DNA of 64,000 bases, taken from the NCBI RefSeq assembly GCF_964355755.1, contig NC_092680.1, forward strand, positions 16,595,001 through 16,659,000, in the 5' to 3' direction. Positions 9,926 through 63,095 of this stretch are shown here, piece after piece (the first letter of the stretch is position 1; each line of letters opens with the position of its first letter). Source of the stretch: Antedon mediterranea (taxonomy: Eukaryota > Echinodermata > Crinoidea > Comatulida > Antedonidae). The notes under the pieces were generated by a model. That model saw only the letters and a list, made by a program, of their open reading frames with translations. It made no database searches and was not told where the DNA came from. The position numbers were made by a program, and so were the translations under genes.

Positions 9926-10610
9926 TATATCTCCACAATCAATAACACTCAGTTCACCACCAACAATTTCATTCCAAATGCATATGACAGGGAACTAACT
10001 CTGGAGAACAAAGCCTCATCAACGTCTGCAACCAGACATGATACCAACAGAAGAAGTTGTATAGAAGAAAAGATTCTCAACAGTTGACTATCTCTCCACA
10101 ATCAATAACAATCAGCTCACCAACAACAATGTCATTCAAACTGCATATAAGTTATAACGGGGAACTCTGGAGAACAAAGCCTCATCAACGTCTGCAAGCA
10201 GACATAATACCAACAGAAGAAGTTATATAGAAGCAAAGATTCTCAACAGTTGACTATCTCTCCACAATCAATAACACTCAGCTCACCAACAACAATGTCA
10301 TTCAAACTGCATATAAGTTATAACGGGGAACTCTGGAAAACAAAGCCTCATCAACGTCTGCAAGCAGACATAATACCAACAGAAGAAGTTATATAGAAGA
10401 AAAGATTCTCAACAGTTGACTATCTCTCCACAATCAATAACACTCAGCTCACCAACAACAATGTCATTCAAACTGAATATAAGTTATAACGGGGAACTCT
10501 GAAGAACAAAGCCTCATCAACGTCTGCAAGCAGACATGATACCAACAAACAAAGACAAAGCCTCATCAACGTCTGCAAGCAGACATAATACCAGAAGAAG
10601 AAGAAGAATA
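9925..10610 (+). repeat. 166-bp tandem repeat, about four copies
   Basis: The marker CTCCACAATCAATAACA recurs at about 9931, 10094, 10260 and 10426, that is at steps of 163, 166 and 166. Each unit also holds CCTCATCAACGTCTGCAA and GACATAATACCAACAG. The last unit is shortened and rearranged. The first unit joins the LINE remnant without a gap, so the array probably grew from that element's 3' end. Confidence 0.85.
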
Positions 10611-29700: not shown

Positions 29701-32700
29701 ATCTTCTTGTTGCAGTGTTTTCAATCTATCACACGTTAGTATTTGACCAAAAGTAAAGACGTAAATAATGAGCCGATTTATGCCTGGTAGGTGGGACAAA
29801 ATAATGTTTAGAGACGGTAGACATAATAATTATTATTGGTCAAATGTTTGCTCTACTCTAACGTAGTACATTAAGAATACTAGCGAAAAAATAATTAATT
29901 CTCAATGTCCTTAGTATAAAGTACAGATTACGTGAGAGTAGGGCAAAAATCTGACCAATTACTTAACACGCTTATGCGAAGCTACCCCACAGTAGTTACA
30001 AACAATTGCAATTATTATTACAAAAATGGAAAGACCAGCCTTTTGCGAGAAAGTTTTGAATGAAAGCAAAGCCGATAGATTAACCAAAAATGACATATCA
30101 GACAATTACTTCGTATTGTAACAGGAGGTCCAATGTACACATGTGGCTCGGGTGCATTCCAAGAAACTGAGAGTAGATGGTTACCCATCCCAGTGCATCC
30201 GTGCATTGGACCATGTCATGTATTCATTTCGAGCCAAGTCTGCCCCAAGTCAACTCGACCTCATGGCAACTCGAAAACATTATATTTTAATTTCAGATTG
30301 AGAATGTATCTAAAAACAAACAATATACCTTCAACAAATAATACAGATGTACATCATCATGGGAAGAGTAAAGTTAAAATTGTAATTTCACTTTTTTCAT
30401 TGTAAGCAATTAGGAATACAAATCTAATTAATTGATTATATTATTATTGTGGGCATTCACTATGTTAATCAGTGACAAGATCACAATCTAATGAATAATC
30501 TTTGCACAAGGTCAATGAAGGATTATAATATATCATGAAATCTGAATACCATTATCGTCTTTATATAATATGTTTTCATGGTAAAATGAAAACATTCGTT
30601 TCCTGAAAAAAAAAACGGCCTTTAGTTTTATAGAAAACTAAAAAAGAAATTATTGAGTTTCTTTGTGGTACTAAACACAACATTAATGATGCTACCAATT
30701 TATTTTAAATTTAATGTATTTTTAAAAATATTGCAAATTATTTCGAGAACACAATGTGAACCGACCTTTTTCGTACAGCGAATTATTTAATTACGTTAAG
30801 ATCAACATGTTTGGAGATAAGAAGCGATGCTATAGATTTGTAAAAGTCATTTCATTTGAAGACAGATTAATGAATTCACTGAGTGGTAAACGAGAGATCT
30901 AAGCGGAAGGATGTCTTTTAATGCTCTCTTAGGCCATCTTCTAAGTACTCTTACTATGTTAAGTTTGATTGCAATCACGACAGCTTGAAAATAATAGATT
31001 ACAGTAATATAAATAAATATTCAAAATTCAGCAATCATTGTCTTCATATTGTCAAGGGAAGGGTCAACATTATTATATAACAGTAATAACTAAATTAGCA
31101 GTTACTGCAGTTACTGCAGTAAGTACATTTTGTTTACTCTATAACATGTTTATATAGCAGCATTCCGTTAGGCCTGTCGCTCATTTCTTTCATCTGTATT
31201 GAAAGAAATCATGATCATCATCATAACCATCATCATTATCATAATCATCATTATCATCATCACAATCATAATCATAACCATCATCATCATCATCATCATC
31301 ATCATCACCGTAACCATCATCATTATCATCTTAACCATCATCATTAGCATCATAACCATCATCATTAGCATCATAATTATCATCATCACAATCATCATCA
31401 TAACCATCATCATCATAATCATCATCATAATCATAATCGTCATCATAACGATCATCATCATTACCATAACCATCATCATTATCATCATAACCATCATCAT
31501 TACTATCATAATTATCATCATCATAATCATAATTATCATCATCATAACCATCATCATCATAACCATCATCATCATAACCATCATCACTATCATCATAACC
31601 ATCATCATTACTATCATAATTATCATCATCATAATCATAACCATCATCATCATAACCATCATCATCATAACCATCATCATCATAACCATCATCACTATCA
31701 TCATAACCATCATCATTACTATCATAATTATCATCATCATAATCATCATCATCATAATCATCATCATCATAACCATCATCATCATCATAACCATCATCAT
31801 TATCACCATAACCATCATCATCACCATAACCATCATCATCATAACCATCATCATTATCATCATCAGCGGCATTATGTTAGTCTACTCTAACGTTGTGAAA
31901 TTGTTTTCAAGTAAAAAAATAGAATTACATACATGAAGATGCTTTTCTTGACAATTCCTCTCCAGCTTTCTTGACTATCCGAACGAAAACACAATATGAA
32001 TTTCATATGGTAAATTAGGTTACGTGATTTAGTGTCAACCTTTTTTGTTTTCAAAATGATTTAGTTTCGTATTACTCTTGTTCAGATTGAATTCTTCTAT
32101 TATTATGTGGCATTCTTTATTTAAACCATTACTTTTATTTCTTTGAAAAAGTGTATATGCACATTACTTCCGTCAATCCACCGTGACATTGTTTGGGGAA
32201 TCAACTTAACGGCATTATACTTATACTGGATAGCAAGTTCAATCACATCTATAGAAGACTTTTGTCAGAAGTAGTTAATCACTTCGCTAAAATCTAAGCT
32301 ACTGACGTCACTAAATCCATGATATTTGTTCATGTTATTCGAATACTAGCTATACAAATCCACTGTTTTTATTTGGTGCGTTCATACTGCTGCAGATTAT
32401 GTATTTTTACAATTATTTCAATCTGATAATGGAATTGCCATTAGCTACAGCCACCTGCTTGTCTGCTAAATTTAGCGCGCTTTGATGTATTGTTACTGAA
32501 AGAATAGTTTGCGATACATTGTCGTTTGGATAGATATTTTTGTTCGTTTCAATTGAAAATCTCACTAAAGCTTGGTTCCTTTTAGGACGCAACGCAAGGA
32601 CGTAAGCGCAGCGCAAATAATTTTAACTATCACGACGCGATGTACTATCCGCCGAACTGTTGCTTGTGATTGGTCAAATTACTTGCTTAGCGCTTACGTC

Positions 32701-35700
32701 CTTGTGTTATAGTGGGAACCAAGCATTAGATTGAATATTTTCTAGCAAATGCCTACTTGTTTATTTTCTGTGTGCGTAACTTCAAATTACTCATCCGATT
32801 CTGGATTCTTGCAACCAAGCAAGATTGGTATTAATCTTTTCCGGATATTCTATCATTATATAACATCTAAATAAATGCCTGTCATTTGGTTGGACGATTG
32901 TGGGTCACATGGCGTGCAATAGTACGCACTATTAAATGATCGTTTAATAGTACTTTAAATTTAAATTAGTAGTAGGTTTTAGTATTTTTATTTATTAATG
33001 GGAACATCTCTACAAGACGTGGAATCGTTGGAAAAAACATAATTAGCCTAGATGATTGCCTGTCGAAATTTCGTATTGCTGTCTTTCAGCCTAGACCTAG
33101 TAGTAGGCCTAGGCCTGTTAATATTAGGCTAGACCTAGGCGTTTTAACCTTGCTATGCCTAGTATTATTTGGTCGTTTGTTGACATAATTAACACTAACA
33201 GTAGGTGCGTTTATGAAATACATATAAATAATAATAATAATTAATATAATTATTAAAAACCAAATGTTACTGTTTTAATCAATGGGAATCAAAAGCAGGC
33301 CTTGGCTAGGCCTACCTTTTTATTGATTCAAATGACAGGAATCTATTTAGATGTTATATAAAACAAATAATGAATGTTTTATATTCGTGTAATGGTACAA
33401 ATAATTGCATTTGGTGAATGGTGGAAGGTTATATATCAACTCGGCTGTCGCCTCGTTGAAATATAACATTATCATTCACCTCATGCCATTATTTGTACCA
33501 TTACACGAATATAAAACATTCATTATTTGTATAATAAATGGTAGTATTTGAAAGCACTAACACTAACAATGTTTCATTTTATTTGTGTGTCAGTCATAGT
33601 GTACTGAAAATGTTCGTGTCATATTTAAATTCACTGAATGATTTAAGAGATAGTTTCTATAAAGTTTACCTGTTCATATGGGTTTTAATGTAAAGAAAAT
33701 CTCAGTTTCTATCCTAATCAAGAAAGAGATTGCATTTTAATGATTTCTGAGTTTTTAATGTCCCTATAGTATATTTTAGTACGTGATGATTATTGTCAGA
33801 AAGGTTGCTTGCATGGAGTTGGAAACCTTTTAAATGTATTTTATAGTTCATACTCTTTGATAGAAAATGTGTGGGAGCGACAACATATCTTATTTTATAT
33901 ACCCTTTAGGAACCTTTAATACTAAATTAGGCATAAATGTAAAGTAAGTGGGCATATTCAGTCAGTGGGCTTTTAATGATTCTGTCTGAATTATATTATG
34001 CAAAATATCACAGTAATAATATTTTATTGATTTTATAGTTTCTTTCTATAGTATACGGTACTTTCTACTACATTAGCATTTCAATATTGTAAATATTCGA
34101 TATGCGTATTGTAGTCACCCGATTATCGGCATTGCAAGCCACTCTATCTAGAATATCACAGCGTAACATGTATTTCCTAGTATAATGTAGCTTAGCCCTT
34201 AACCTAACCTTACACGATGCAGGTACCGCATATGATACAAATTAGATGATGTATTTCCAAATAGTCCTATAATACTGGGTATATATTGTAGTAAGTGGAA
34301 ATATAACACTGAGAAACGAATAGGTCAAACTCTGATGCTAATGCTATCAACAACCTTCCTTGCAGCCAAAAATAGAACATAAATGTAAGCCTTGATATTC
34401 ATTTATATAATTATAAAATTGGCATACAAAATACAGCACCTGAACGCTGTAGGCATTTTTCGCCGATTTTTTTTTATGTACTGACCCACGGCGTGTGGCG
34501 CAGGGTATTGGACGTTCGACTACTGATCGTGAGATCGAGGTTCGAATCCAACTCTCGCCGCATTGCTGGTATCCTTAGGCACAAGATACTTTACTTACGT
34601 TTGCCTCTCTCCACCCAGGTGTGTAAATGGGAACCCGGTTAGACCAAGACACAACTTTGGGCTGATTACTAGCTGCATTATGGGAGTATGTTTCCATACG
34701 TGTTTGATCCAAACAAATGACTGGGATAATAATGTTCAGCTCTTAGAGGTTTCACAACATTAAGCGCTATATCAATCCAGGATATTATTATTATTATTAT
34801 TATTAACTCTCAATATCATTTTTTTAATTAATTATAATTCAACTTGATTAGTATTTTGGCGAATGTTTATGAATGTTTAAAGTTTATTCTCAAATTGAAG
34901 TTGACATTTTCATCGGAACACGAAGAAATAAATCTTCATAATCTAACTACTACGGCGCTACAATGTATTGCGCCACCTATCGTTTAAGTGTTTTACATCA
35001 CTTTGATCATCAAATTCAACATTCATAATGAATCTGATTGCAATCTTATATTTATTGTTTTTCTTTCTGGAACATAGAGACCTATGTAAGGTTATTAAGT
35101 TTCTATTAACTCCAGGCCACATCACTATTAATATTCATTAACGTATAGCTAATTATCTCGTCTTATTTCAATCTACGACAGAGTACAACTGTCAAGTTGT
35201 ACAGAATTTTGGAGGAATGCAGGGGTACATATCTCTACTGAAAGTGTAGGATAAGACATTTGATATACATGATGCCGAGTAATTGTTATGTGATGGACAT
35301 TTAGAACAATGTAATGCATGCAAAATTCAGTCTTTCCAGGGAAGGGTACACTCCTTCGAGGTCTTGCACAAATATTATTAACAAATGATACAAATATCCC
35401 ATAATAAGTAAATCTTGGCTCTTACAACTCAGATGAGAGATCTGAAATACGATGCCAGTTTTAAAATAAATACTTTACTGTATCACTTAAATCTGTAAAC
35501 ATAGCATTTTGCACAGTCTACTATTAATAAATGTCATGAAACGTATTATTCACTTCATAGGTTGTAAAAGATTTTATCGGTAGATTAGCCGGTTGTTTTG
35601 TCGGCTGGTTGGGTGGTTCAATGTCCACTCTGTTGGTCATTCAACTAATTGGAATATTGTGGATTATTTTGGTTGATTTACGAATTCTTGCCAGTCCATT

Positions 35701-38700: not shown

Positions 38701-41700
38701 CACTAACGCGTTGACGTATGATATTTAGGTCTAAATCTATTGTGTTAATTAGCTTATTCAGAACATGGTTCATTATATTGACTTAACTTGATTTGTTTTT
38801 CTTTTTTTGTTTTGCAGTGTCCTCTACAGTTTTGGTGGGAATTTTTGCAGCTTCGTTTACAGTTTTCATATTTCTTGTGGTTGGTTTCTATCATTACTGT
38901 CGACGTCGTAAACAGTCGCCATTTTCAAGCAACTCGAATCGGTCATATGTAACGAAGAGTTATTGCGCAAAGACAAGCAGACCCCCGAGCAGTCCTGAAA
39001 GTCTATCGTCTCCAGAGTTTCCTTCTGATTACGCTCCGTCAATGTCATCACTCCATCCGTCCCAGTCATTTTCGTCACAATCTATATCATCGCTTGAACG
39101 TAAACTAACTGTTAAAAATAGGACATTCTCTGGGAGTACAGGAAGCATGATTGATCCAACGACATTGAATAAAGATTGTTATTCGGAAGATGGCTTCGAA
39201 AGTAGTTGTGCCATTGAGGAAGCACCACCATCTCCGAGACTGATAGAGCCCGGTGCGCTAGGAGAGCTCGACTTCACCGTCGAATACAACTCGGCTAGGC
39301 AGACGTTCCTTGTGACTATACACAAAGCAAGTAATCTACCTAAGCGGGATCCATTGGCATCTGGTTGTACTTCAGATCCGTACGTCAAGCTGTATCTTCT
39401 ACCAGAAAAGAAGCATAAAGTAAAGACGAGGGTAATGAGAAAGACATCCGATCCCGTGTATGAAGAAACTTTCTCATTTTATAATCTGGAGTACTACCAG
39501 CTTCAAGGAATAACCCTGCATTTTGTGATCATGAGCTTCGATCGATTCTCGCGTGACCAACTTATTGGCGAGGTCGTTGTCTCCACGGCGAATGTAGACC
39601 TTGGCCAAGGTCCTGTCCACATGACAAAAGATATAACGCCTAGAAAACCAAGGGTAAGTAATATTTCTTCTGATTGATTTTTGTAATTTTGTTTGATCTT
39701 GCGTTAAATCTTTGCTATATTACATTGGCTGCAACTTTAATTTATTTAAATTACTAAGTTTTGATATTTGTTTTTTTCCGCTTACTTTTTTTTTGTTATT
39801 AGGTAATCTTTTTGTTGGAAAAAGATCACCTATTGTTATTTTACAAAATCGTTATTTTTCTTTTTCTTTGTTTATTTTGTGGTCCGATTATTTAAAAAAA
39901 TTTCAATTAATTGTAAATGTTCACAATATCTTATAACAACAACAGCTCGGCCACTGACTCGCTTCAATTCAAATGACGTCACCATATCAAACAAATTGAT
40001 AATTTCTCCTAATGTATATTTAATGTTTATAACTTTTTATTAAAGGTGTTGTATTGTAGAATATGAATCCATGTAGACATTCTGCATATCGGAAGTTTGA
40101 CGTCATCATGGCCATCTGAATTTAAAAAGTATTATTTTCATTCATCACATTCAAAAGAGGGCGCATCTCGCTTTGTGTATTCTTGCTTAGACAATTATTT
40201 TCTAAAATTGTTAACTTCATTTTCATTTTAATGACGAAATGTCAAAAATTGGAATGTATGATAGACCTGTATTCAGCAATTGGTAGACGACGGTAATAAA
40301 GCATAGAATTCCACTGAGACTGAAAGACAGTGAAAACACAAATTTGACTTCAACACGTTTACAACACAAACTACCGAGTGTAGTTTAGCTAGTAAACACC
40401 GACAATGTGCCTTACCTTTCCATTATTAATTTCATCAGAAAAATTCAAACATTGTTGGCCACATGTCAAGATGACTAAAAAAACTGTGTTAAAATTCCAC
40501 TAGAAATTTTACCTTTTCAATAAACTATAGTAGGAGCACGTGTTCCACTTCCAAATGTGGAACTTGTACCACACGCCATAATTCCGGAAGAACCACCCCA
40601 TTCCATTATTGATAAACTTGGTCTGTAAGTACTTCACCATGGTCAGTTGATCTTCCAGGTTGAGTTATAATAAAGCCTATTCACAATGCCTCACGTCGAT
40701 TATTATTATTATCACGAGGATAGCAAATTAATATAGGCCTGCAGATTGTAGGCCTAATGATGATGGTAACTTACTTTACCTGTCGGAGTGCCACCTACAG
40801 TTATTACTATAGGTGGCACTCCGACGGTGCATACCTCAGGCAGTATAACTTCCTTACATACAAAAAATTCCCTTCATAAAACAATTCTCCTCGAACAAAA
40901 AAAAAAACAATTGTTAATTGTGTCTCTTTGTACTGTGACACTGTGGCCTGTAATTAAAAATAAATATTTTGCGTGTATTATGAATGAAATCCTTCTTCCT
41001 AGTAAACTTCCAGATTATGTATTCATGAAAAAAGTTTGCCTATCGGATGTTGTGACGTCATCATCCGATCAGCTGAATAACAAACAATAGTTTTTAGATA
41101 TCTTTCATCAAAGTGTACATCGCGCGTCAATTTTGTTATATAAATATACATATTTATATAATATCTTTCTGCTGACAATTGAATATTGTCATCTTCATGT
41201 TTTATTGTGAAGACGTCATCATGCCAATACATAAGAATATAATGTGGATCCCGTAATTTTTAAGTGACGAATTAAAATCTGTTTTTTCAGACACTCCCGT
41301 TTCCATTCTTCATTACAACACTGAATTATTATCTTAAGTATGGTTATTAATATAACACATTTCAGTATTTACCTTTTGTGTAACATAAATATTACTGTTT
41401 TGCTATTTTTTGTGATGTTGTATTATTTGTTTTTAAATGATTTGTGTTATTGTTTCTCTTTCACATTGTAGAACTTTTCTTATAATATTTTTACTGATAT
41501 TTGAATGTTGCATATGTTGTAAAAGATACTAATTACATAATATGTTTTAATAACTGAACATAATAGAGCATTGATAGCTCATTTAATTAACAATTCTCTG
41601 CTGCAGTGCGTTCCTCGTAATTACAATTGCATCTATTAGATGCAAATTCGTTTTACTAACGACAGGTTGAAATAAAAGATTGTTGTTCTCGAGTCTATAA

Positions 41701-44012
41701 CCTGACCATTATGAACTTTCAATCGTAATATAATATGATAATCCACCCACTCATAAATTATATACAGCCCACACATTATTTTTTTCCTGTAAACCTAACA
41801 CTATCAAGATAGCAATCCTAGCCTAGTACACGATGTTGTTGATCAAAGGTTGAGAAAAAAACGTAATATTTTAGATTTGGAATTGTAAGAGAAAAGGGTT
41901 GGAATGTAGTATTCCTCAAATACCACTGGTACGCAACGCAAGGACGTAAGCGCAACGCACCGTGATTGATTTTAATCGTGGTTCCCATTTAGGACGCAAC
42001 GCAGACGTAAGCGCAACTGGCGTAATTTGACCATTCACGACGTGATGCATCATCCTAACTGTCGCTTGCGCTTTGTCATGTGAATTTCATTGTTACAAAT
42101 TACCCACGTGACTAACGTAGTAATTACATGCGTATTTCAGGAGTACATGTGCGTTAGTTGCTCTCATATCAAGCAACCAACATTAATAAAGGTAGAAAGC
42201 TATAAAACGGTCTGTTAAGCCGATTTTCCACTAGGCGAATTTGTTCGCGCGAATCGAAGGCGTCAGCTAATACGCATGCGTAGAGAAGGATTTGGAAGAT
42301 GTAAACATGAATACACATGCGTACAAGCTGGCGCGTTCGATTCGCGCGAACAAATTCGCCTAGTGGAAAATCTGCTTTACAAACTACCGCTAATTTATAC
42401 GAACTAGATTGAGAACGGAATGAATATTTTATTTTAGAATGATACTTTGAAATGAACACAATCACATTCGAATTTATCATGAATGTCAGGTTGATCTTAT
42501 TGAAACACAATATACAGTAAAAAGTACTGGACATTAAATGTACATTTTGTTCACCCTATCGTCAAGAGTCATTTTGATTGATTGAAAGATGTATTTTTGT
42601 AACTTATAAACTATTATTTTCACGTCACGTGTATATACCTGCAGTCTCTACAAAAACAGCGTCTACAATCCACCCGGTTTTACGCGTGTGAACACGTACT
42701 CAAATCATTAAGTATCAATCTATACATCGGCAGCAACAGCTGGAAATACTTGTTTACAGACAGTTTTGTTTCTTGTATTTATAACTTAATATGCAGTCGT
42801 ATTCCGCATGACTGTTTTCAACAGAAATTTGAATTAAGTAAATGAATAGTATGAAAAGGTCAAAGGTTTAAGAATTCGTTTTAATTAGTAATGCAACATG
42901 TAATGCAGCATAGTCTCATATTTGTGTAGTACACAAAATAAGACGATAGTTATAAAATCAAATGAAAATATCTTTTGTCCTAGCCATGTAATTTTGGCGT
43001 ATTATTAATATTTAACAACAGTTTCTTGTCTTGTAATTGACATTGAGGCGAAGCTTTTCTGGTTACAGGACGAGTTCTTTTCTCTTCCTGGAATTGCTGG
43101 TTAGAGCTGCATAAAATGAGTTCAATCAGGATAGAATTGATTTTGATGTTCTCTGTCTTGTTTTTTTTTTTTTTTAAGGTAGCGAAGAGTCAGGGTCGTG
43201 GTGAGCTACTAGTATCCCTAGGCTATCAACCGGCGCTCAATAAGCTAACTGTCGTCGTATTGAAGGCGAAAAATCTACCAAAGATGGATGTTACTGGGCT
43301 CTCTGGTACGTAGTCAATATTTTGCAAAATACTGACAGCCTTAAGATCTTAGGAACTTTCTGTATTTAAATGTTATATTTTGGTTATGAATAGTATGCGT
43401 CATTTTAAAGAATACCACTTAATAATATAATAAATATCATTGTAATCAGATAATTCAATTGGTTAAAGTTCAAGTTCAAATTTATTGTCAAATATATAGC
43501 AATTAAAATGTTTTCCCAAGGTTAAAAACACCATAAAAATAGTTACACGCAAATACATACAAAAAAACAATTCAATATTAAGATAGGTTAAAACAGTAAA
43601 AGATGAACTTGATAAATTGCACTATGATTTAGTTAAGATTTAAAAATACAGAAAACTTATCTTTTCAATTGCTTATTAAATATTCTAACTGCACATTTAT
43701 TTTTCAGATCCATACGTAAAGATGTATCTCATGTATGGAACACAACGACTTGCTAAGAAAAAAACACGATTAAAAAAGAGAACACTTAATCCGGTTTTCA
43801 ACGAATCTTTCATGTTCGATGTTCCGATAGATGGGCTTGAGAATATCCATTTAGAATTTCATGTGCTTGACCATGATCGAGTAACAAAAAATGAAATAAT
43901 TGGGCGACTTAACATCGGTAAAAATGCCAATGAACTGGAAGCTAAACACTGGGACGACATTGTTCAGAATCCACGACGTCAATTTGCGGAGTGGCACGCC
44001 CTTACAGCATGA
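14746..44012 (+). CDS. SYT4: Synaptotagmin-4/11-like vesicle protein, whole coding region in four exons
   Basis: Join 14746-14797 (predicted), 38818-39653, 43179-43305 and 43708-44012: 1,320 nt, 439 residues plus stop, all phases agree; vertebrate SYT4 is about 425 residues. Layout: short lumenal N-terminus, membrane segment ~22-45 followed by CRRRK, Ser/Pro-rich linker, C2A ~166-295, GRGELLVSL hinge, C2B ~300-439 ending in a WHALTA tail. Synaptotagmin-4/11 proteins sit on secretory vesicles and post-Golgi/dense-core carriers and tune exocytosis. The subfamily call rests on SFDRFSRD in C2A (Ser where SYT1 has a Ca2+-binding Asp), [21 protein letters not shown], and the PRRQ-x-A-x-WH ending. 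Exon 1 is inferred; the remainder is near certain. Intron 1 would be about 24 kb. The vertebrate SYT4/SYT11 split means it may be co-orthologous to both. Confidence 0.85.
15280..15331. promoter_or_regulatory. Three CAGGTG E-boxes in a short tandem repeat
   Basis: The motif TACTACAGGTGGACA occurs three times; CAGGTG at 15280-15285, 15308-15313 and 15326-15331. It sits ~480 bp into intron 1 of the Syt4/11 gene. CAGGTG is the core bound by Snail/Scratch and some bHLH factors. Function here is inference. Confidence 0.4.
15341..16690. other. Syt4/11 intron 1, nothing recognised
   Basis: AT-rich intronic DNA without supported coding, RNA or repeat features. Confidence 0.4.
16691..16830 (-). repeat. 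Microsatellite and probable LINE 3' tail (minus strand)
   Basis: (CTTC)n and (ATTC)n runs are followed by TTTATCTTTAATTCAGAATT and a unique stretch. A microsatellite next to such sequence is typical of the 3' end of CR1/L2-type LINEs read on the opposite strand. Confidence 0.4.
17419..17838. promoter_or_regulatory. Two RFX X-box-like sites in intron 1
   Basis: GTTACCATGGTAAT near 17419 and GTGTCCATGGTAAC near 17825 both fit the palindromic X-box pattern (GTNRCC, two bases, RGNAAC), the second very closely. RFX factors control neuronal and ciliary genes. The role here is not shown. Confidence 0.35.
18358..18623. mobile_element. MITE (CTCTGTCTACACTATCAAAC family), longer copy
   Basis: Starts TAAAGCTCTGTCTACACTAT and ends TAGTGTAGACAGAGCTTAA. 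The core contains repeated GATGTGCCCATATATGGAC and ATGATGTCATATCACTAC blocks, suggesting a partial internal duplication compared with 6789-6954. Confidence 0.8.
18624..19870. other. Syt4/11 intron 1, nothing recognised
   Basis: AT-rich; no supported feature. Confidence 0.4.
19871..20515 (+). mobile_element. 5'-truncated CR1/L2-type LINE (C-terminus of the polyprotein plus 3' end)
   Basis: An open frame to the TAA at 20168-20170 encodes a ~90-residue C-terminus containing [15 protein letters not shown] and [17 protein letters not shown]. The Y-x-T-R then S-G-P-x-L-W-N-x-L-P pattern is the hallmark of the extreme C-terminus of CR1/Rex/L2-like reverse-transcriptase proteins. A 3' region with a (TTTA)n tract near 20325-20360 follows, ending with AATAAATGTTACTTTGAATT, a LINE-style 3' terminus. 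No stop or frameshift in the surviving part. Confidence 0.8.
20516..22960. other. Syt4/11 intron 1, nothing recognised
   Basis: AT-rich unique-looking DNA with short poly-T tracts. No gene seen. Confidence 0.4.
22961..23035 (+). repeat. SINE 3' tail with (AAT)n
   Basis: GTATAAATGTGCGCTATACA followed by (ATA)n resembles the 3' end of the SINE at 34490-34805 (AAGCGCTATATCAA then ATT repeats). Only the tail remains. Confidence 0.5.
23375..23470 (-). repeat. Probable LINE 3' fragment, minus strand
   Basis: TTTATTCAAATTCAAACAAAC then AAGACAAGGAAATACC; the first part read in reverse is a TTTGAATTTGAATAAA tail, typical of CR1-like LINE 3' ends. Confidence 0.35.
23471..25077. other. Syt4/11 intron 1, nothing recognised
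   Basis: AT-rich; no feature supported. Confidence 0.4.
25078..25190 (+). repeat. Interspersed repeat with GGTCGGTC units
   Basis: CTACAGCTCACTATGTCGGA, TTGGTCGGTCGATAAACACT, AACTCAAATTTGA, then GCGACTGCAGCCATGT and ATGGCCTTGTT. Shares order and sequence with 28184-28305, and its first half with 11461-11520. The TE class is unknown. Confidence 0.65.
25191..25370. mobile_element. Partial MITE (CTCTGTCTACACT family)
   Basis: Left end TTAAAGCTCTGTCTATACAT and the GATGTGATGTGCC and CATATCACTACC blocks are present. The right terminus has decayed. It abuts the repeat at 25078-25190. Confidence 0.65.
25371..28183. other. Syt4/11 intron 1, mostly unrecognised
   Basis: AT-rich. Only a short hairpin at 27010-27046 stands out (stem CTAGATGGTACGC with its exact complement). 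No gene seen. Confidence 0.4.
28184..28305 (+). repeat. Interspersed repeat with expanded GGTCGGTC units
   Basis: CTACAGCCCACTATGTCGGT then about six units of TTGGTCGG/GGTCGGTC, followed by GATAAACACTAACTTGAGC and GCGACTGCAGCCATGT. It is the same family as 25078-25190, but with more copies of the 8-bp unit. Confidence 0.7.
28306..31195. other. Syt4/11 intron 1 with a SINE-like half copy near 30120-30225
   Basis: Mostly AT-rich and unrecognised. At 30127 GGTCCAATGTACACATGTGG begins a stretch like the body of the 9019 SINE and ends with its inverted end GTGCATTGGACC near 30208. Confidence 0.4.
31200..31866. repeat. (ATC/ATA)n trinucleotide microsatellite, ~665 bp
   Basis: Nearly uninterrupted ATC, ATA and ACC triplets, with higher-order blocks such as ATCATCATAACCATC recurring. 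Long open frames on both strands (poly-Ile/Thr and poly-Met) are artefacts of its composition. Confidence 0.97.
32570..32724. mobile_element. MITE (GCTTGGTTCC family)
   Basis: Termini GCTTGGTTCC and GGAACCAAGC are exact complements. Inner arms AGGACGCAACGCAAGGACGT and CTTACGTCCTTGTGTTATAG extend the inverted repeat. It also contains GCTTGTGATTGGTCAAATTA. Related copies at 41930-42080 and 44429-44565. Confidence 0.8.
32860..33362. mobile_element. TIR element (TATAACATCTAAATA family)
   Basis: Left TATAACATCTAAATAAATGC CTGTCATTT and right AAATGACAGG AATCTATTTAGATGTTATA are inverted repeats of ~30 bp. The interior holds CTAGGCCTAG palindromes and GTGGGTCACATGGCG. A related stretch lies at 36375-36480. 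No coding capacity. Confidence 0.7.
33363..33530. repeat. Large near-perfect palindrome
   Basis: The arm beginning ACAAATAATGAATGTTTTAT is matched by an exact 42-bp complement ending at about 33530. Imperfect pairing continues inward around TGGTGAATG / CATTCACCTCATGCC. Total span ~170 bp. A decayed single arm occurs at 35868-35915. Confidence 0.85.
33531..34489. other. Syt4/11 intron 1, nothing recognised
   Basis: AT-rich, no supported feature. Confidence 0.4.
34490..34805 (+). repeat. tRNA-derived SINE, near full length, with (ATT)n tail
   Basis: Head GGCGTGTGGCGCAGGG (A box) and GGTTCGAATCC (B box, 34539-34549), with no clean cloverleaf. The body has GCCTCTCTCCACCCAGGTGT, AATGGGAACCCGGTTAGACC and GGGCTGATTACTAGCTGCAT. 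The 3' end is AAGCGCTATATCAATCCAGG followed by (ATT)n. This is a full SINE layout: tRNA promoter, body, LINE-type tail. Confidence 0.85.
34806..38817. other. Syt4/11 intron 1, 3' part
   Basis: AT-rich. It holds fragments of the elements at 32860 and 33363 (about 35820-35915 and 36230-36480). Several unspliced open frames at 37136-37875 lack any domain or codon signal and are judged chance. The pyrimidine-rich tract and acceptor of the next exon end it. Confidence 0.45.
38818..39653 (+). CDS. SYT4: Syt4/11 exon: membrane segment, linker and C2A domain
   Basis: Acceptor TTTTGCAG ends at 38817 and donor GTAAGT starts at 39654. Encoded order: membrane segment ([20 protein letters not shown]), Cys and basic stop-transfer residues (YCRRRK), a ~115-residue Ser/Pro-rich linker, then C2A from [17 protein letters not shown]2A loop 1 keeps Asp in KRDPLAS and in SDPYVK. 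Loop 3 reads SFDRFSRDQ, so the first loop-3 Asp is Ser and the last is Gln. Confidence 0.93.
39974..41060. promoter_or_regulatory. Three perfect CRE palindromes in intron 2
   Basis: TGACGTCA at 39974-39981, 40098-40105 and 41053-41060. CREB/ATF factors bind this octamer, and mammalian SYT4 is known as an activity- and cAMP-induced gene. Whether these intronic sites act is inference. Confidence 0.3.
42218..42376. mobile_element. MITE with ~37-bp terminal inverted repeats
   Basis: GATTTTCCACTAGGCGAATT at 42222 continues to TGTTCGCGCGAATCGAA. It is matched exactly by TTCGATTCGCGCGAACA ending GCCTAGTGGAAAATC at 42372. Flanking TTA on both sides (42215-42217, 42377-42379 approx.) may be a 3-bp target duplication, as for PIF/Harbinger elements. 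Related copy at 12413-12547. Confidence 0.85.
43179..43305 (+). CDS. SYT4: Syt4/11 exon: C2A-C2B hinge and C2B start
   Basis: Acceptor is a long T-tract then AAG; donor GTACGT at 43306. It encodes [20 protein letters not shown] and then [20 protein letters not shown], matching the start of the C2B domain in SYT4/11. It leaves one base of the Asp codon of DPYVK. Confidence 0.92.
43306..43707. other. Syt4/11 intron 3 with a minus-strand LINE 3' fragment
   Basis: Around 43462-43560 it reads AAGTTCAAGTTCAAATTTAT then TTTTCCCAAGGTTAAAAACA. The reverse complement ends in a TTGAACTTGAACTT tail, typical of CR1-like LINEs. Confidence 0.45.
43708..44012 (+). CDS. SYT4: Syt4/11 last exon: rest of the C2B domain
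   Basis: Acceptor TTTTCAG ends at 43707; stop TGA at 44010-44012. It encodes [11 protein letters not shown], the polybasic strand [43 protein letters not shown] and the ending [13 protein letters not shown]. Loop 3 keeps two Asp residues (LDHDR). Confidence 0.95.
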
Positions 44013-45265: not shown

Positions 45266-45286
45266 AAACAATGTGAATGTGTAGCA

Positions 45287-45601
45287 CCAAGCTACACGTA
45301 CCTCCTGCACTTCGCTCAAATTTACCGCAGTCATATTTTGGATAGCGCCCTTAATATTTCGTTACCATGCGAAACAGATTTTTACTGGCTTACGAAAAAC
45401 GAATAATTGTGCGTGACGTATCCGTTTTCGTTATCGTATTCGTAAGATTGCGAAACCTCCCTAATGACAATATTTTGACGCGTGAAAGGGACGTTTTTTT
45501 AAACCCTTTTCTATTGTCACCGATAATTTAGATATACAATTAATTATCTAACCATAATCAATACTTTTGCAAGGTACCTATAAAGTGATCATACATATCA
45601 C
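45287..45601 (+). mobile_element. Truncated GGGAGGTTTCGCAA element plus duplicated flank
   Basis: Contains the right half of the TIR element (terminus AACCTCCC ending at 45461) and then ~140 bp of flank that is also present, apparently identical, at 50409-50548. It keeps the uninterrupted CATATTTTGGATAGCGCCC, the empty version of the foldback insertion site. The left half of the element is absent. Confidence 0.8.
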
Positions 45602-46420: not shown

Positions 46421-48206
46421 ATCCATTAGAGCGCCCCCAAGGGGGTATAGAAAAAATCCGGAGGTGGCGCTATTTTAAAATTTTGAGCATTCTTGTTGGC
46501 CTAAATTTATTATTCGAAGAAAATAAAATAGAAAATGAACTTATGTCTTTCATAATAAAGCATGTTCAACACTATTTAGACTATTTAAAGTGATTTATGG
46601 AGGCGGATCGGTGAGGTCTGAGGTAATTGAAGACGATAGCATGGAAAATTCCAAGTACAGTAGGCCTTACTCCTTCATAGCATTATCTATTTCTTAAATT
46701 GTTTGATCCAGCCCCGTGGATAAATAAATTTGAATACAATGATAGTTGTTGTGCAATCAGAAAAAACACGTTACTATGGTTACACGCATGGTAAATGCAA
46801 CCGTACAACACGTTGAACTCAAATTATAAAACGGTATAGAGTTATGGGACTGGCTCAGGGCTATTGACTGGTGCTAGAGGGCTACCAAGAGATTGCCACA
46901 AATGTCATGCAAGTGGCGCTATTTTAAGAGACCTAACAGCTACTGTAAGTGTACACATAGGTAAAAGTTTATTTAATTGTGCACAGAAAAATGAACAATA
47001 ATATTATTATCATTGAAGCATCCTTAGGTTGTAGTTGTGGTGGTGCAGCTCACCTGGCTCCAGGTAATTGATATGCAAATTAGGTTTGCCTGGCATGCCT
47101 GGCTTTTGTTAACTAGCATAGGTTAGTGCTGTAGCTGTTCAATTCTAAGTTTACTTTAGGCCTAGAGACATATCTTTGGTAAGTGTTTAATAAAATGCGT
47201 GTATCTATAATGTACACTTTTAAGTATGATACAGACTTATAAGCTGGTTTCTACTGTTAGGCATAATAGTCTGTAGAGATGTAGGCATTCTTTTGTTGTA
47301 TGTTGGTACTAAGCATTTATTTTGTTATTATTATTAATAGTCAATCCGGAATAAGGCGTCCGATGAGATGCAAATAAACTGAATTGCAATTTTGTGACCA
47401 CCTGCTAATGTACCATTAACACTGTCACCACAACTTCGTATACGGTATCTATGGCTTAGTAACTGTTATTTAACAAGAATAATATTCTTGTAGAGAATTA
47501 AGGTAAGAATGGAGTTTGTCTAATTCTAAAGAAGTAAGCAAAAAGACAACCATGTTAACTTTCTCGATTTGTTGAAATACCGCCCTCTCATTCAAGTAAG
47601 GCGCCAATAACAGTCCTTTGATCTTATGTCTGACTGCGACATACCAGCATTACTGTACCATGTACATATTCTTCGCGGCGCGCGGTGCATGTTGAGGGGC
47701 ATGGAACTGAACGTGTCGCAGTCACAGATAAACTTTCATCTCCGGAGTTCAGCATCCTGATGTTAGATTGCCTTGATCCATACACGGAGCTAGCTGTTTA
47801 AATTGCGAACGCGGGGCGGAGTGGCTGAGCTGAATACATTGTACTTCTAACCTTTTGTGGATACATGCATATCCTTTATATTGCTTTAAATACCTCCTTT
47901 AAATTCTCTAATAACATGATTTATTAATGAATTGTGCATGGAATATAATTAAAACTATTAATGAAAACATTGCACAAAAGCATCGTTAAAATAATATTAT
48001 TGAAATACAAAATAATGTTTTAAGTGTATTTACTATGTAAGCAAAATTTATCCGTAATGTGAAATAATGACATGACAGCTTATTAGATAGTTGTGTCATA
48101 TTCCAAGGAAGTAGATGACAGCTATGCAATTATAGCACATTGACTGTTGGTATCATGAATACATTGAGTTGGATTAATTTTTGGTACTGTGTAATAATGT
48201 ATACAA
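46421..48206. other. Intergenic, mostly unrecognised
   Basis: Contains GGCGGAGTGGCTGAGCTGAA at about 47815, a possible tRNA-derived SINE A-box remnant. No host gene is apparent. Confidence 0.35.
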
Positions 48207-48597
48207 TAGGGAGGTTTCGCAACCCTTACGAATACGATAACGAAAACGGATACGTCACACATTTGTGAAACTTTTTGAGCTGATCCCCATTTCATATTCG
48301 TAAAGCGTATTCGTGAAGACGAATATCACCAGTCATATTCGTAACTACAAAACGAGTATAGTTTTTGCTCTATTTTGCACATTTTGCATTTGAATCAGGA
48401 ATGATTTATGATTATAATATACTTATAGATTTATTGAAAGTAATTTACTAAAGTAATTCACTAAAATGCCAGGTCAATTTTGATAAATAGCAGTTTTTAA
48501 AATCCTCGCTTTGATGTTACGCTAGGCCTAGGCAGCCAAGCACCAAGCTACACGTACCTCCTGCACTTCGCTCAAATTTACCGCAGTCATATTTTGG

Positions 48598-50279
48598 GGT
48601 TCTAGGACACCTACCCCCTAGACAGTTACCCCCCGGATGTTTACCACCCGGACAACTACCCCCTTAGGACAACTACCCCCCGGACAACTACCCCCCGGAC
48701 AACTACCCCCTTAGGACAACTACCCCCTTAGGATAACAACCCCCCGGACAACTACCCCCCGGACAACCACCCCCTTAGGACAACTACCCCCTTAGGATAA
48801 CTACCCCCCGGGTAACTACCCCCCGGTCAACTACCCCCCGGTCAACTACCCCCCCCCCCCCCATCCAAAAGTAGACAAATATATAGGACCGGTTTCTGTA
48901 AAAATGAAATCATCTGTTTTTAACGGGTGTTTCGAAACTAGAGACCCGAGACCAGAGACCTGACACGAGACCCAATACGAAAAGGGAGACCTATATTTGG
49001 GTCTCCCTTTTCGTATAGTGTGGTCTCTCTTTTCGTATAGTGGGGTCTCCTTTTTCGTATATTTGGGTCTCCCTTTTCGTATAGTGTGGTCTCTCTTTTC
49101 GTATAGTGGGTCTCCCTTTTCGTATATTTGGGTCTCCCATTTTGTATATTTGGGTCTCCCTTTCGTATAATTGGGTCTCCCTTTTCGTATATTAGGGTCT
49201 CCTTTTTCGTATAGTGGGGTCTCCCTTTTCGTATAGTGGGGTCTCCCTTTTCGTACGTGGGTCTCCCTTTTCGTATATTTAGGTCTCCCTTTTCGTATTG
49301 GGTCTCGGGTCTCTGGTCTCTGGTCTCGGGTCTCTAGTTTCAAAACACCCGTTTTTAACCGATTATTCTGTTTAACAGCACGCTAGACCCTAGATGTGCT
49401 AGATTTAAAGTACCGTATTTATTGAAAAAACGGCCTGGGCTGTTTATTGTTTAGGTGGTTTTTAGGTGGACATTTATTGGAAGAAAGTTGTTTATTCAAT
49501 GGGAGGGGGTATAATCTAATGGAAATAGACGCCGATTATTCCATATGATGTTTCATGGGAGTGACATGGTCACCGTTTATTTGAGGGGAATTTATTTAAA
49601 GATCGACGTTTATTCGGCGAGTGAACATTGAGGTCAAATATCAAAAGTGATATTATTCTTCAAGTGTACAAAAATACATATATGACAAATTTGAGACAAA
49701 AATTAATTTTTTTAAGACCAGTGGTTATCGAAGCATTGTCCTGACGCAAAAATTATTATTATTATTAGCGAACCCAGTCTTTACAGTAAATACAGGGAGT
49801 ACTATATAATACGTTCGACTATCCTATGATCATGGGTGACAATCTTCAGTTTATACCAGGCTATATTTATGTTCAATCTTTTACTTTTGTTTACAATAAT
49901 GAATAGTAATTCGTCAAAGTAACGAATTAAAATATAGTTATTAATTCCTATTATACACTGTTGCAGAGTCAGGTTGTTGAATGGTCTGGGTTGTTAGGGT
50001 GTTCTAAAGGGATAGTTTTCTGGGTGGTAATTGTCCGGGGGGTAATTGTCCGGGGAGTAATTGCTCCTAGGGGGTAATTGTCCGGGGGGGTAGTTGTCCA
50101 GGGGGTAGTTGTCCTAAGGGGGTTGTTGTCCTAAGGGGGTAGTTGTCCGGGGGGTATTTGTCCGGGGGGTAGTTGTCCTAAAGGGGTAGTTGTCCTAAGG
50201 GGGTAGTGGTCCAGGTGGTGGTTGTCCGGGGGGTAGTTGTCCGGGGGGTAAATGTCCAGGGGGTGAATATCCGGATACG
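48598..50279. mobile_element. Foldback transposon with tandem-repeat arms
   Basis: 1,682 bp flanked by the 9-bp duplication ATATTTTGG (48589-48597 and 50280-50288). The left arm (48600-48850) is a tandem array of GGACAACTACCCCC variants about 14-17 bp long. The right arm (50020-50270) is the complement, GGGGGTAGTTGTCC. Long inverted arms built of short direct repeats and 9-bp target duplications are the hallmarks of foldback (FB) elements. The middle (49360-49980) holds a further repeat (ACCGTATTTATTG, GGACATTTATTGG) and no transposase. Confidence 0.85.
48925..49350. mobile_element. Small inner foldback element with a tandem core
   Basis: Flanked by the 9-bp duplication GTTTTTAAC (48916-48924 and 49351-49359). 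Ends GGGTGTTTCGAAACTAGAGA and TCTCTAGTTTCAAAACACCC are inverted repeats, extending into GACCCGAGACCAGAGACC. The core is a ~20-bp tandem array of GGGTCTCCCTTTTCGTATA. The 165-residue open frame on the minus strand is a product of this array. Confidence 0.88.
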
Positions 50280-50548
50280 ATATTTTGGATGGCGCCCTTA
50301 ATAATTCGTTACCATGCGAAACAGATTTTTACTGGCTTACGAAAAACGAATAATTGTGCGTGACGTATCCGTTTTCGTTATCGTATTCGTAAGATTGCGA
50401 AACCTCCCTAATGACAATATTTTGACGCGTGAAAGGGACGTTTTTTTAAACCCTTTTCTATTGTCACCGATAATTTAGATATACAATTAATTATCTAACC
50501 ATAATCAATACTTTTGCAAGGTACCTATAAAGTGATCATACATATCAC

Positions 50549-50755
50549 ATCAAGTTGTTTATTCATTCATTATTGATAAGTATAGAAAATGTTATTTTAA
50601 TCATTTTTCAACCTTGCTGATTCTAATATTCCTGTACTTATGCATTATGTTCGATTATAGTATATTTTTAATAATGATTAATTTTAACAAGGTCTTCGGT
50701 AAACTATCAATGACCTTTGCAGGTGACATAATCATTATTAAATCAATGATCGATG
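50549..50755. other. Intergenic, nothing recognised
   Basis: Short AT-rich spacer. Confidence 0.3.
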
Positions 50756-58399: not shown

Positions 58400-58944
58400 T
58401 GCGGGCAAAAAATACATTTCAATAATTATCAATGTATTGTTTCCCCTATGTTTCATAAATGTTGGGATTTTACACAAGCTTGTGGAATATAAGCACTTTC
58501 TTATCAGTGGGGGATAGTTCAAATTACACAGTAACATCTATATTCTTTGGTACACAAATGTTGTAAATAGAGAGGCATTTTCAAAAACTATGAAAAATAA
58601 ACGGTGTGGTAAAAAAATGTTATCAGACGACTAAATATAGGTAATATAACTTGAATTTTACGTTTCTATTATTTTTATTCAACTTCATAGTTTTATTTTT
58701 ATGCTATAGCAAAAATTATCCACCGTATATCCACCATCTGTTTTCACCTTCTAGAGAGTTACCAGACATGTTATTTCATTATGAAAAAAAGTCTTCCTGG
58801 TTTTTATAGCAGCAGAATTTTGCCAAATTTTGTATTTGACCATTTTAAAGAAAATTCATGTTGTTTCATCTTGATTTCTTGTACAAATATTTTATTTAGA
58901 TATTATATTTAAAATCCATGCCTGTACCTGAGCTTTAAACCAAG
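58400..58944. other. Intergenic, target region of the LINE insertion
   Basis: AT-rich unique-looking DNA; nothing else recognised. Confidence 0.4.
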
Positions 58945-58960
58945 AAACATCTATCAAATT

Positions 58961-59707
58961 GACGCTATTCCAAGAAACTGGAAAGTTATAGTGGTTGAGA
59001 AACCCTATTGTTATATACATAAAGAGGTTGATACAATAGACAAAAATGTTAATGTTACTTCAAATTATACAACTGTCAAACAATTCTATTTCACTTTTAC
59101 CGAGGTAGCATATAAAGCGTGCATACCAAAAGCACAAGATAAATGGGAAAACCAACTTCAAAATTGTTTTATCGACTGGAATCTATGTTGGAAAAACAAA
59201 GTTAAGAGTATGTTGCACATAAAAAGAGTGGCTTTCTTTAATTTTAAGTTGCTACATAAAATTTTACCAACTAGGTGTAAGCTAAAATTATGGAATTTGT
59301 CAAACAGTAATTATTGTGAATATTGTAATGAGGAGGTTGAAAATGAAAAGCATATGTTATTTACATGCAAAGAAGTAAAACATTGCTGGGTAAAATGTTG
59401 CGCTATGCTGAAAACATGTTTTGCATTTACTCAGGAAGTTACATGGGAGAAAATTTTACTTGGAAAATATGATGTCAAAATTAATGAAATATTTTCCATT
59501 TTAACTTTCTGTGTTTATAAAAATAAAGTCAAACACAGACTAGGACTTGTTAAAAAATGTCCATGGTTAATTTTCACTGCGGAGTTAGAAGATATAATCA
59601 ATTGTGAGTTTTTAATAAATAAAGAAAAGGCAAAAAAAATGTGGTCAGATATGAACCGTAACAATTTAGCAAGGTATAAAATTAACGTTTATAAAATTGA
59701 TATTTAG
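58961..59707 (+). pseudogene. ORF2 C-terminal fragment with a zf-RVT-type zinc knuckle
   Basis: 248 codons open from the insertion junction to TAG (59705-59707). It includes WNLCWKNKVKSMLHIKRVAF, FNFKLLHKILPTRCKLKLWN and CEYCNEEVENEKHMLFTC. The C-x2-C-x8-H-x4-C motif after a K-x-x-x-F-x-x-K-L-L-H-x-I-L-P-T helix is the zf-RVT-like domain at the C-terminus of L1/Tx1-clade reverse-transcriptase proteins. The reverse-transcriptase and endonuclease parts are missing, so it is dead on its own. Confidence 0.85.
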
Positions 59708-61749: not shown

Positions 61750-63095
61750 GTTCACTCTGTTGAGAATTATGAAGTCAGTTGTTGGAGACCTCTTTGACCG
61801 TGTACATACTTATTCTCCATACAGTAGCCTTGGTTCAATTGACGATTCATCGGATCCACTCTGTTAAGTATAAAGTCAGTTTTGGATTATTCTTTGACCG
61901 TGTACATAAGTATTCTCCAGACACTGGCCTTGGTTCATTTGACGATTCACCGGATCCACTCTGTTGAGAATTATGAAGTCAGTTGTTGGATTCCTCTGTG
62001 ACCGTGTACATACGTATTCTCAAGATAATTGTCTTGATTCATTTGACGATTCACCTGATCCACTTGTTGAGAATTATGAAGTCAGTTGTTGGATTCCTCT
62101 TTAACAATGTACATAAGTATTCTCAAATAATTTTCTTGGTTCATTTGACGATTAACGGGATCCATTCTGTTGAGATTATGAAGTCAGTTGTTGGATTCCT
62201 CTTTGACCGTGTACATAAGTATTCTCAAGATAGTTGTCTTGGCTCATTTGATAATTCACCGGATCCATTCTGTTGAGATTATGAAGTAAGTTGTTGGATT
62301 CCTCTTTGACCATGTGCAGGCGTATTCTCAAGATAGTTGTCTTGGTTCTCTTGGCGATTCACCGGGTTTACTCTGTTGAGATTATGAAGTCAGTTGTTGG
62401 ATTCCTCTTTGACCGTGTGCAGGCGTATTCTCAAGATAGTTGTCTGGGTTCTATTGGCGATTCACTGGGTTTACTCTGTTGAGATTATGAAGTCAGTTGT
62501 TGGATTCCTCTTTGGCCGTGTGCAGGCGTATTCTCAAGATAGTTGTCTTAGTTCTCTTGGCGATTCACCGGGTTTACTCTGTTGAGATTATGAAGTCAGT
62601 TGTTGGATTCCTCTTTGAACGTGTGCAGGCGTATTCTCAAGATAGTTGTCTTGGTTCTCTTGGCGATTCACCGGGTTTACTCTAAGAATTATGAAGTCAG
62701 TTGTTGGATTCCTCTTTGGCCGTTTGCAGGCGTATTCTCAAGATAGTTGTCTTGGTTCTCTTGGTGGTTCACCAGGTTCTGTTGAGAATTATGAAGTCAG
62801 TTGTTGGATTCCTCTTTGACCGTGTGCAGGCGTATTCTCAAGATAGTTGTCTTGGTTCTCTTGGCGGTTCACCGAGTTCACTCTGAGAATTATGAAGTTA
62901 GTTGTTGGATTCCTCTTTGACCGTGTACAGGCGTATTCTCCAGATAGTTGTCTTTGTTCTCTTGGCGGTTCACCGAGTTTACTCTGAGAATTATGAAGTT
63001 AGTTGTTGGATTCCTCTTTGACCGTGTACAGGCGTTGACGGTTCACTGGCTTCACTCTGTTGATAATTATGATCAAGTCAATTACTGGATTACAC
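61750..63095 (+). repeat. ~103-bp minisatellite, about 13 units
   Basis: The marker ATTATGAAGTCAGTTGTTGG recurs at steps of ~99-106 bp. Each unit goes on with ATTCCTCTTTGACCGTGT, GCGTATTCTCAAGATAGTTG and a GGCGATTCACCGGG block. Central units (62280-62890) are nearly identical; outer ones diverge and shorten. Since 103 is not a multiple of three, the overlapping ~62-codon open frames are artefacts of the array. Confidence 0.95.

Follow-up and report, generated by a model that had tools for sequence, protein, structure and literature searches.

A foldback transposon family of the crinoid Antedon mediterranea, very probably of the Phantom branch of the Mutator superfamily, and a likely helper element with the same ends

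Foldback elements of the Drosophila FB/NOF type have long inverted arms made of tandem units, which differ from the arm units of the crinoid family reported here, and the TU elements of sea urchins form an echinoderm foldback family with 8-bp duplications, mixed middle segments, and tandem repeats of about 15 bp in the outer domain of the arms. Transposons of the Mutator type move by a DDE cut-and-paste mechanism in which the target is cut with a stagger of about 9 bp and repair leaves a duplication, and their short copies are moved in trans. A foldback element has been described in sea urchin (cited in PMC4079207), and descriptions of foldback elements often lack the enzyme responsible for their movement, as is the case for Tetris (PMC4079207). 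Like the element reported here, Tetris has long inverted arms of tandem units, 8-10-bp duplications, and no transposase in the copies found, but its arm units are about 220 bp long, and a search for its transposase was unsuccessful (PMC4079207). Phantom, group 20 of PMC6446971, is likewise similar in its variable end structure, with a minisatellite in some members (aphids), a FLYWCH domain in some members, and duplications of 8-10 bp where these are given. The Phantom hosts tabulated there are Platyhelminthes, Crustacea, Arthropoda, Tunicata, and an Ichnovirus, and echinoderms are not among them (PMC6446971). The family Tm1 of Meloidogyne, designated as Mutator/Foldback, has asymmetric 7-bp tips outside the inverted repeat, then GGA and a variable number of tandem units (PMC3169594). 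Its duplications are mostly of 9 bp (8-10), and its many short copies are accompanied by a single transposase-bearing element with suggested introns and with FLYWCH and MULE transposase domains (PMC3169594).

The window analysed is a stretch of 64,000 bp (C11:16595001-16659000) in the A. mediterranea assembly of 354 Mb and 18 contigs. It carries an insert of 1682 bp at 48598-50279 on the + strand, and the 9-bp direct duplication noted in the preliminary description was exact, with ATATTTTGG at both 48589-48597 and 50280-50288. Very probably, the insert is a foldback DNA transposon of the non-autonomous kind, and the crinoid family to which it belongs is a member of the Phantom branch (FLYWCH and MULE domains) of the Mutator superfamily. 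It is placed in a small inverted-repeat transposon (48209-50408) with ends GGGAGGTTTCGCAA... and TA flanks at 48207-48208 and 50409-50410. The arms of this host element, 48225-48261 and 50357-50393, are 97% complementary, and stretches related to it lie near 24-445, 3335-3596, and 45283-45463. The uninterrupted ATATTTTGG site was found, as previously claimed, in two other copies of the host element, at 326-334 and 45333-45341 on the + strand. When the insert and one duplicate were removed, the locus aligned with the 45283-45601 copy without gaps and differed from it at 2 of 319 positions; both differences (45283-45601 compared with 48539-50548) are at most about 20 bases from the insertion site. 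An exact 9-mer match at the separation given by the insert occurs at 2 of 62,300 window positions, the insert itself counted. The 45-kb empty copy runs beyond the end of the host element and is part of a short segmental duplication (45283-45601 and 48539-50548), a feature absent from the preliminary description. The insertion postdates the segmental duplication, or the duplication copied an empty chromosome; in the former case, the insertion would be recent. When 48201-50700 was compared with Pfam in six frames (E up to 0.1), the three matches obtained (E 0.013 to 0.087) fell well short of their cut-offs, so no coding domain was recognised in the foldback element, in agreement with the earlier view that it has no transposase.

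The ends of the element are asymmetric, with 7-bp tips followed in each case by GGA and by tandem units mostly of 14-18 bp. Tip A is GGTTCTA (48598-48604, + strand), and tip B is CGTATCC read inward (50273-50279, - strand). The left arm (48605-48862, + strand) is composed of units GGACAACTACCCCC with or without TTA or C, and the right arm (49999-50272, - strand) carries the same tandem unit in opposite orientation. The arms are thus opposed arrays with spacers, as had been described for this locus, and units matched in order from the outer end are 21, 16, and 15 bp long on both sides. Long inverted arms made of short tandem units are the structure of a foldback element. The unit is absent from the rest of the window, even when 2 mismatches are allowed. 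Interior segment 1 (48855-48915, + strand) was found in six of the eight other loci compared, with 96-100% identity, and the first 397 bp of interior segment 2 (49360-49998, + strand) are also present in the candidate helper element described below, with 96% identity. Two spaced arm units had no match in the viral and prokaryote collections, as expected for an animal element, and a literature search with arm-unit strings returned nothing related by title or abstract. Among the papers listed in literature searches for echinoderm foldback or Phantom families, none had a title or abstract describing a crinoid family.

The earlier assignment to a foldback transposon of the Mutator/FB type is supported, and a MULE gene lies between the same tips in another copy, but the element is composite, with a second inverted-repeat element inside it that had not been noticed. 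This nested element of 426 bp (48925-49350, + strand) has near-identical inverted ends GGGTGTTT(C/T)GAAACTAGAGACC, a central 22-bp minisatellite, and its own 9-bp duplication GTTTTTAAC at 48916-48924 and 49351-49359 (+ strand). Its end has 203 + 191 copies in the genome, with 0/0 in the control. It was the sole result when the whole window was scanned for exact 12-bp inverted seeds near 7-11-bp duplications in elements shorter than 5 kb; the outer foldback element is invisible to such a scan because its tips differ. In a protein search, none of 1618 candidates matched a reading frame of the nested minisatellite at E up to 0.001, and the nested unit had no match in the viral collection.

In the window copy and in the six further copies whose junctions were inspected (both sides in L009, L010, L011, L012, and L014; right side in L019), the nested element occupies the same site, with GTTTTTAAC. 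Its left junction was present in 15 of the 20 sampled copies, helper locus L066 included, and its uninterrupted site in none of these 20. The simplest reading of the shared site is that the nested element would have entered an ancestor once and was then copied along with the family. On contig C1, 35 of the 38 listed nested-element places are less than 3 kb from a tip; of the remaining three, one (L082) has the family interior, and the others (L080 with L083, L081 with L084) have a single nested-element end each, and the stretches compared there lack the family interior. Among the C1 places listed, none was a complete independent copy with a duplication of its own, so the status of the nested element as a separate mobile family rests on its duplication in the composite. 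In five of 29 loci compared (L016, L017, L058, L060, and L073), the element is of a short form from which most of the interior is missing, along with the nested element.

The family is dispersed over the genome. Exact arm units GGACAACTACCCCC number 1504 + 1683, i.e., 3187, while the reversed control gave 0/0. Tip A with its next 9 bases (16 bases) has 247 exact copies (118 + 129), and tip B with its next 11 bases (18 bases) has 222 (116 + 106), with controls of 0/0 for both. Two sets of regions were compared, namely 11 from the first 4.3 Mb of C1, picked by arm unit (set 1), and 20 at every fourth listed tip A site from the 13th on, from C1 to C3 (set 2). In eight of the set 1 loci, for which tips played no part in the choice, tip A was present in seven and tip B in seven. 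On contig C1, which was covered whole, 34 of the 47 tip A sites have a partner tip B on the opposite strand at a distance of up to 7 kb, and the other 13 are unpaired. The pairing uses 31 of the 35 different tip B sites, three of them shared by two tip A sites each, and no same-strand pair of tips within 3 kb exists on this contig. The nested element is contained in 32 of the 34 pairs. The number of arm units varies between copies. Interior segment 2 is 93.9-98.7% identical to that of the window element (median 97.6%; 20 of 29 loci with a match of at least 400 bp), which suggests that the family spread fairly recently. One locus of 5285 bp (L079) has family tips and an exact 9-bp duplication, and it was considered as an autonomous copy; this was rejected, as it is a short-form element enlarged by other sequence, with no frame recognised as a transposase by eye.

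Target duplications were compared in 21 elements with both tips, i.e., the window copy, six elements from set 1, and 14 from set 2. An exact duplication was present in 15 of them, with a length of 9 bp in seven, 8 bp in six, 10 bp in one, and 7 bp in one. Because the 14 elements of set 2 were picked by exact tip A, tip A is tested by the other seven only. L056 and L058 have 9 bp with one and two mismatches, respectively, and four elements (L055, L062, L070, and L074) have no duplication or only a poor one. In the control, 420 mismatched flank pairings for each length from 5 to 11 bp gave one duplication at 5 bp, one at 9 bp, and none at 6, 7, 8, 10, or 11 bp; the one at 9 bp is attributed to flanks shared by L016 and L058. 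L058 was retained despite its resemblance to L016 in the flanks (left flank equal); without it, the count is 15 of 20. Left out were L057 (same flanks as L056), L060 (three candidate tips B), L017 (tip A end not found), L061, L063, L066, and L069 (fetched piece without tip B), L013, L015, and L018 (not two opposed arms), and L012 (tip B outside the fetched piece; one tip B 5.5 kb away). The helper element and L079, both with exact 9-bp duplications, stand outside the 21. Target duplications of about 9 bp (8-11) are those of Mutator elements, and dispersed copies with common ends and target duplications are those of a foldback family. The preliminary description had anticipated arrays elsewhere in the genome with consistent 9-bp repeats; dispersed arrays with duplications were indeed found, but the length is 7-10 bp, mostly 8-9, and not strictly 9. 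Different boundaries or a lack of duplications, either of which was to speak against a foldback transposon, were looked for in the genome copies and did not occur.

A genome search for the MULE domain gave 36 matches, the best of which (C2:22961653-22961928) is 2.3-2.6 kb inside a tip A. It belongs to an element of 4659 bp at C2:22959617-22964275 that has both family tips and both arms and is flanked by an exact 9-bp duplication CTTTTAAAT. This element also contains interior segment 1, the nested element, and the first 397 bp of interior segment 2. Compared with positions 1-1159 of the window element, the C2 element is 88% identical, arrays included; positions 1160-1402 are absent from it, so internal deletion alone does not turn the C2 element into the window element. 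On its opposite strand, a MULE domain (PF10551, E = 3.7e-16) and a FLYWCH domain (E = 5.1e-6, 27 bits with a cut-off of 23.6) were identified, and the gene thus combines the two domains of Phantom. Sea-urchin FLYWCH-MULE protein P0122 (464 aa) is covered in order over residues 1-464 on one strand of the element, and the gene was read as about four exons with borders that resemble GT...AG introns. The C2 copy may be inactive, because there is one frame change in exon 2 and the deposited Antedon protein matching the locus (P0121, 287 aa) begins after this change. The acidic residues of DGTFK, IDYE, and NHVEGWH, the D, D, and E of which we take to be the catalytic triad of MULE transposases, are present in the C2 protein and in the aligned homologues, and the surrounding residues vary slightly.

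A genome search with P0122 gave at least 42 matches, and among those listed only the C2 locus covers the whole protein (about 56-71% identity); each of the remaining matches is either partial or more distant. Arm units were not found within 1.5 kb of any of the first 30 MULE loci listed, the C2 helper included, and a link between arms and MULE genes therefore looked absent until tip positions were compared with MULE positions. By its shared ends, the C2 gene is the likely helper of the family. A helper elsewhere in the genome, for which a MULE-type transposase with related ends was to be sought, had been postulated from the window alone, and the C2 element with the same tips and its own 9-bp duplication now provides a candidate.

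In the mechanism proposed, a transposase of the lineage of the C2 element would use its FLYWCH domain to bind both the tips and the repeated units of the arms; it would then cut the element out and join it to a staggered cut of about 9 bp, the repair of which would yield the target duplication. Short copies such as the window element would be moved in trans, and the nested element, after its single entry into an ancestor, would have multiplied with the family. The arm repeats of Galileo contain additional transposase binding sites (PMC4079207), and by analogy the arm units here may act as repeated binding sites.

In plan, the closest relative of the crinoid family is nematode Tm1, with which it shares the asymmetric 7-bp tips, the GGA, the variable number of tandem units (13-15 bp in Tm1, mostly 14-18 bp here), duplications of about 9 bp, many short copies beside a single transposase-bearing element, suggested introns, and the domains of the transposase (PMC3169594). 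It is not Tm1 itself, because the tip and unit sequences differ: those of Tm1 are CGGTTAA, CCTACCC, and CGATTCAGTATCCGC, compared with GGTTCTA, CGTATCC, and GGACAACTACCCCC here (PMC3169594). Tm1 also differs in its nematode hosts and in its copy number, 39 and 22 elements in two nematodes compared with more than 200 exact ends in the crinoid (PMC3169594). A further difference is that most paired copies on C1 carry the nested second element. The plan of asymmetric tips, GGA, and units of about 14 bp is hereby extended from nematodes to an echinoderm, which suggests that this plan is characteristic of one branch of Phantom.

Long arms with internal tandem repeats are known from Galileo as well (PMC3688188, PMC3573991), and exact duplications of 8 bp in 6 of the 21 elements would suit a foldback-like member of the P superfamily that depends on a THAP transposase. 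Nevertheless, this origin is extremely unlikely, as the gene between the same tips has FLYWCH and MULE domains, no THAP domain was reported by Pfam in the scanned C2 stretches, and exact 9-bp duplications are about as frequent as those of 8 bp (seven and six, respectively). The duplications of 9 bp would agree with Rehavkus, a Mutator relative with a minisatellite and a PHD finger, in which the minisatellite is near one end (PMC6446971). In the crinoid family, minisatellite arms are at both ends, the helper has a FLYWCH domain, and no PHD finger was reported by Pfam in the scanned C2 stretches; a Rehavkus-type element is accordingly very unlikely. Expansion of a minisatellite or formation of a palindrome within the host element, without transposition, might be considered since the arms are minisatellites with a unit number that varies between copies. 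The exact target duplication and the two empty sites contradict it, and the boundaries shared by unlinked copies, with common tips and with target duplications elsewhere, refute it, so its probability is negligible. The assignment to a Phantom-type foldback transposon rests on linkage and not on duplication length alone, because short copies, the empty site, duplications, and a transposase-bearing copy with the same ends share one assembly.

The best named relatives of the C2 helper outside Antedon are sea-urchin proteins, with 66% identity in S. purpuratus, 63% in Diadema, and 60% in Lytechinus. For these close FLYWCH-MULE proteins, the identity of 60-66% extends over 99% of the query. In a tree of 42 homologues, among which no rows were recognised as reference Phantom sequences, the Antedon protein pairs with that of S. 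purpuratus inside the urchin group (98/92), although a constraint holding the three urchins together was not rejected (p-AU 0.131). The transposase of Antedon and the urchin protein are 67% identical over 284 residues, while for one host gene, synaptotagmin-4, the value is 56% over 440. Horizontal transfer of the transposase between urchins and Antedon might be suspected from these values, which give a lead only. It is also possible, though doubtful, that the crinoid family and sea-urchin TU form one echinoderm Phantom lineage, with the close urchin FLYWCH-MULE proteins as the TU transposases, and that this lineage also crossed echinoderm classes. In the crinoid family, a likely helper is physically linked by identical ends, and the family makes the question of TU testable.

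Three further FLYWCH-MULE relatives, at C2:34331533, C10:7008773, and C9:2074352, have the same match pattern, about 30% identity to the urchin protein, and stop-free frames; perhaps they represent another recently active Phantom family. Three other MULE families, designated as M651, M637, and M707, were compared and set aside, as their ends are unlike the crinoid foldback tips wherever an end was seen. M651 has five near-identical frames of 651 aa (L042-L046) and was compared at C2:1376800-1387900 (L050, L042, and L051) and C2:15346500-15358600 (L075, L043, and L076). The shared stretch is longer than 9 kb with one end reached, and this end is a tip followed by a 10-bp minisatellite (GGGGTCAGTCTAATTA and then CCGAAAACAA units, read inward). 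M707 (L054 and L077; C3:23574500-23580500 and C5:26126900-26132900) has a frame of about 707 aa, and its one end seen is GGTCCGCCTAAAAA followed by a 10-bp minisatellite. The M637 element at C4:19214000-19224500 (L052, L035, and L053) is 6238 bp long, with identical 24-bp ends GCGAAATTTTTTTTACTCGTCATA, a 9-bp duplication GGCCGGCTA, and a frame of 637 aa. The arrangement of tip and minisatellite thus recurs in the Antedon genome, as M651 and M707 show it at the one end seen, while M637 has its 24-bp ends and 9-bp duplication.

Elsewhere in the window, a synaptotagmin exon was identified at 38820-39677, 100% identical to an Antedon mediterranea protein over 98% of the query. A frame with a zf-RVT domain (E = 4.2e-9) at 58913-59707 is probably a retrotransposon remnant, and two near-palindromic repeats of about 175 bp, at 33357-33536 and 42210-42384, are possibly small inverted-repeat transposons. 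Other minisatellites of the window are at 61751-63035, 9926-10547, and 31208-31865, with a unit of 103 bp (12.6 copies), a unit of 166 bp (3.8 copies), and an ATC-rich array, respectively.
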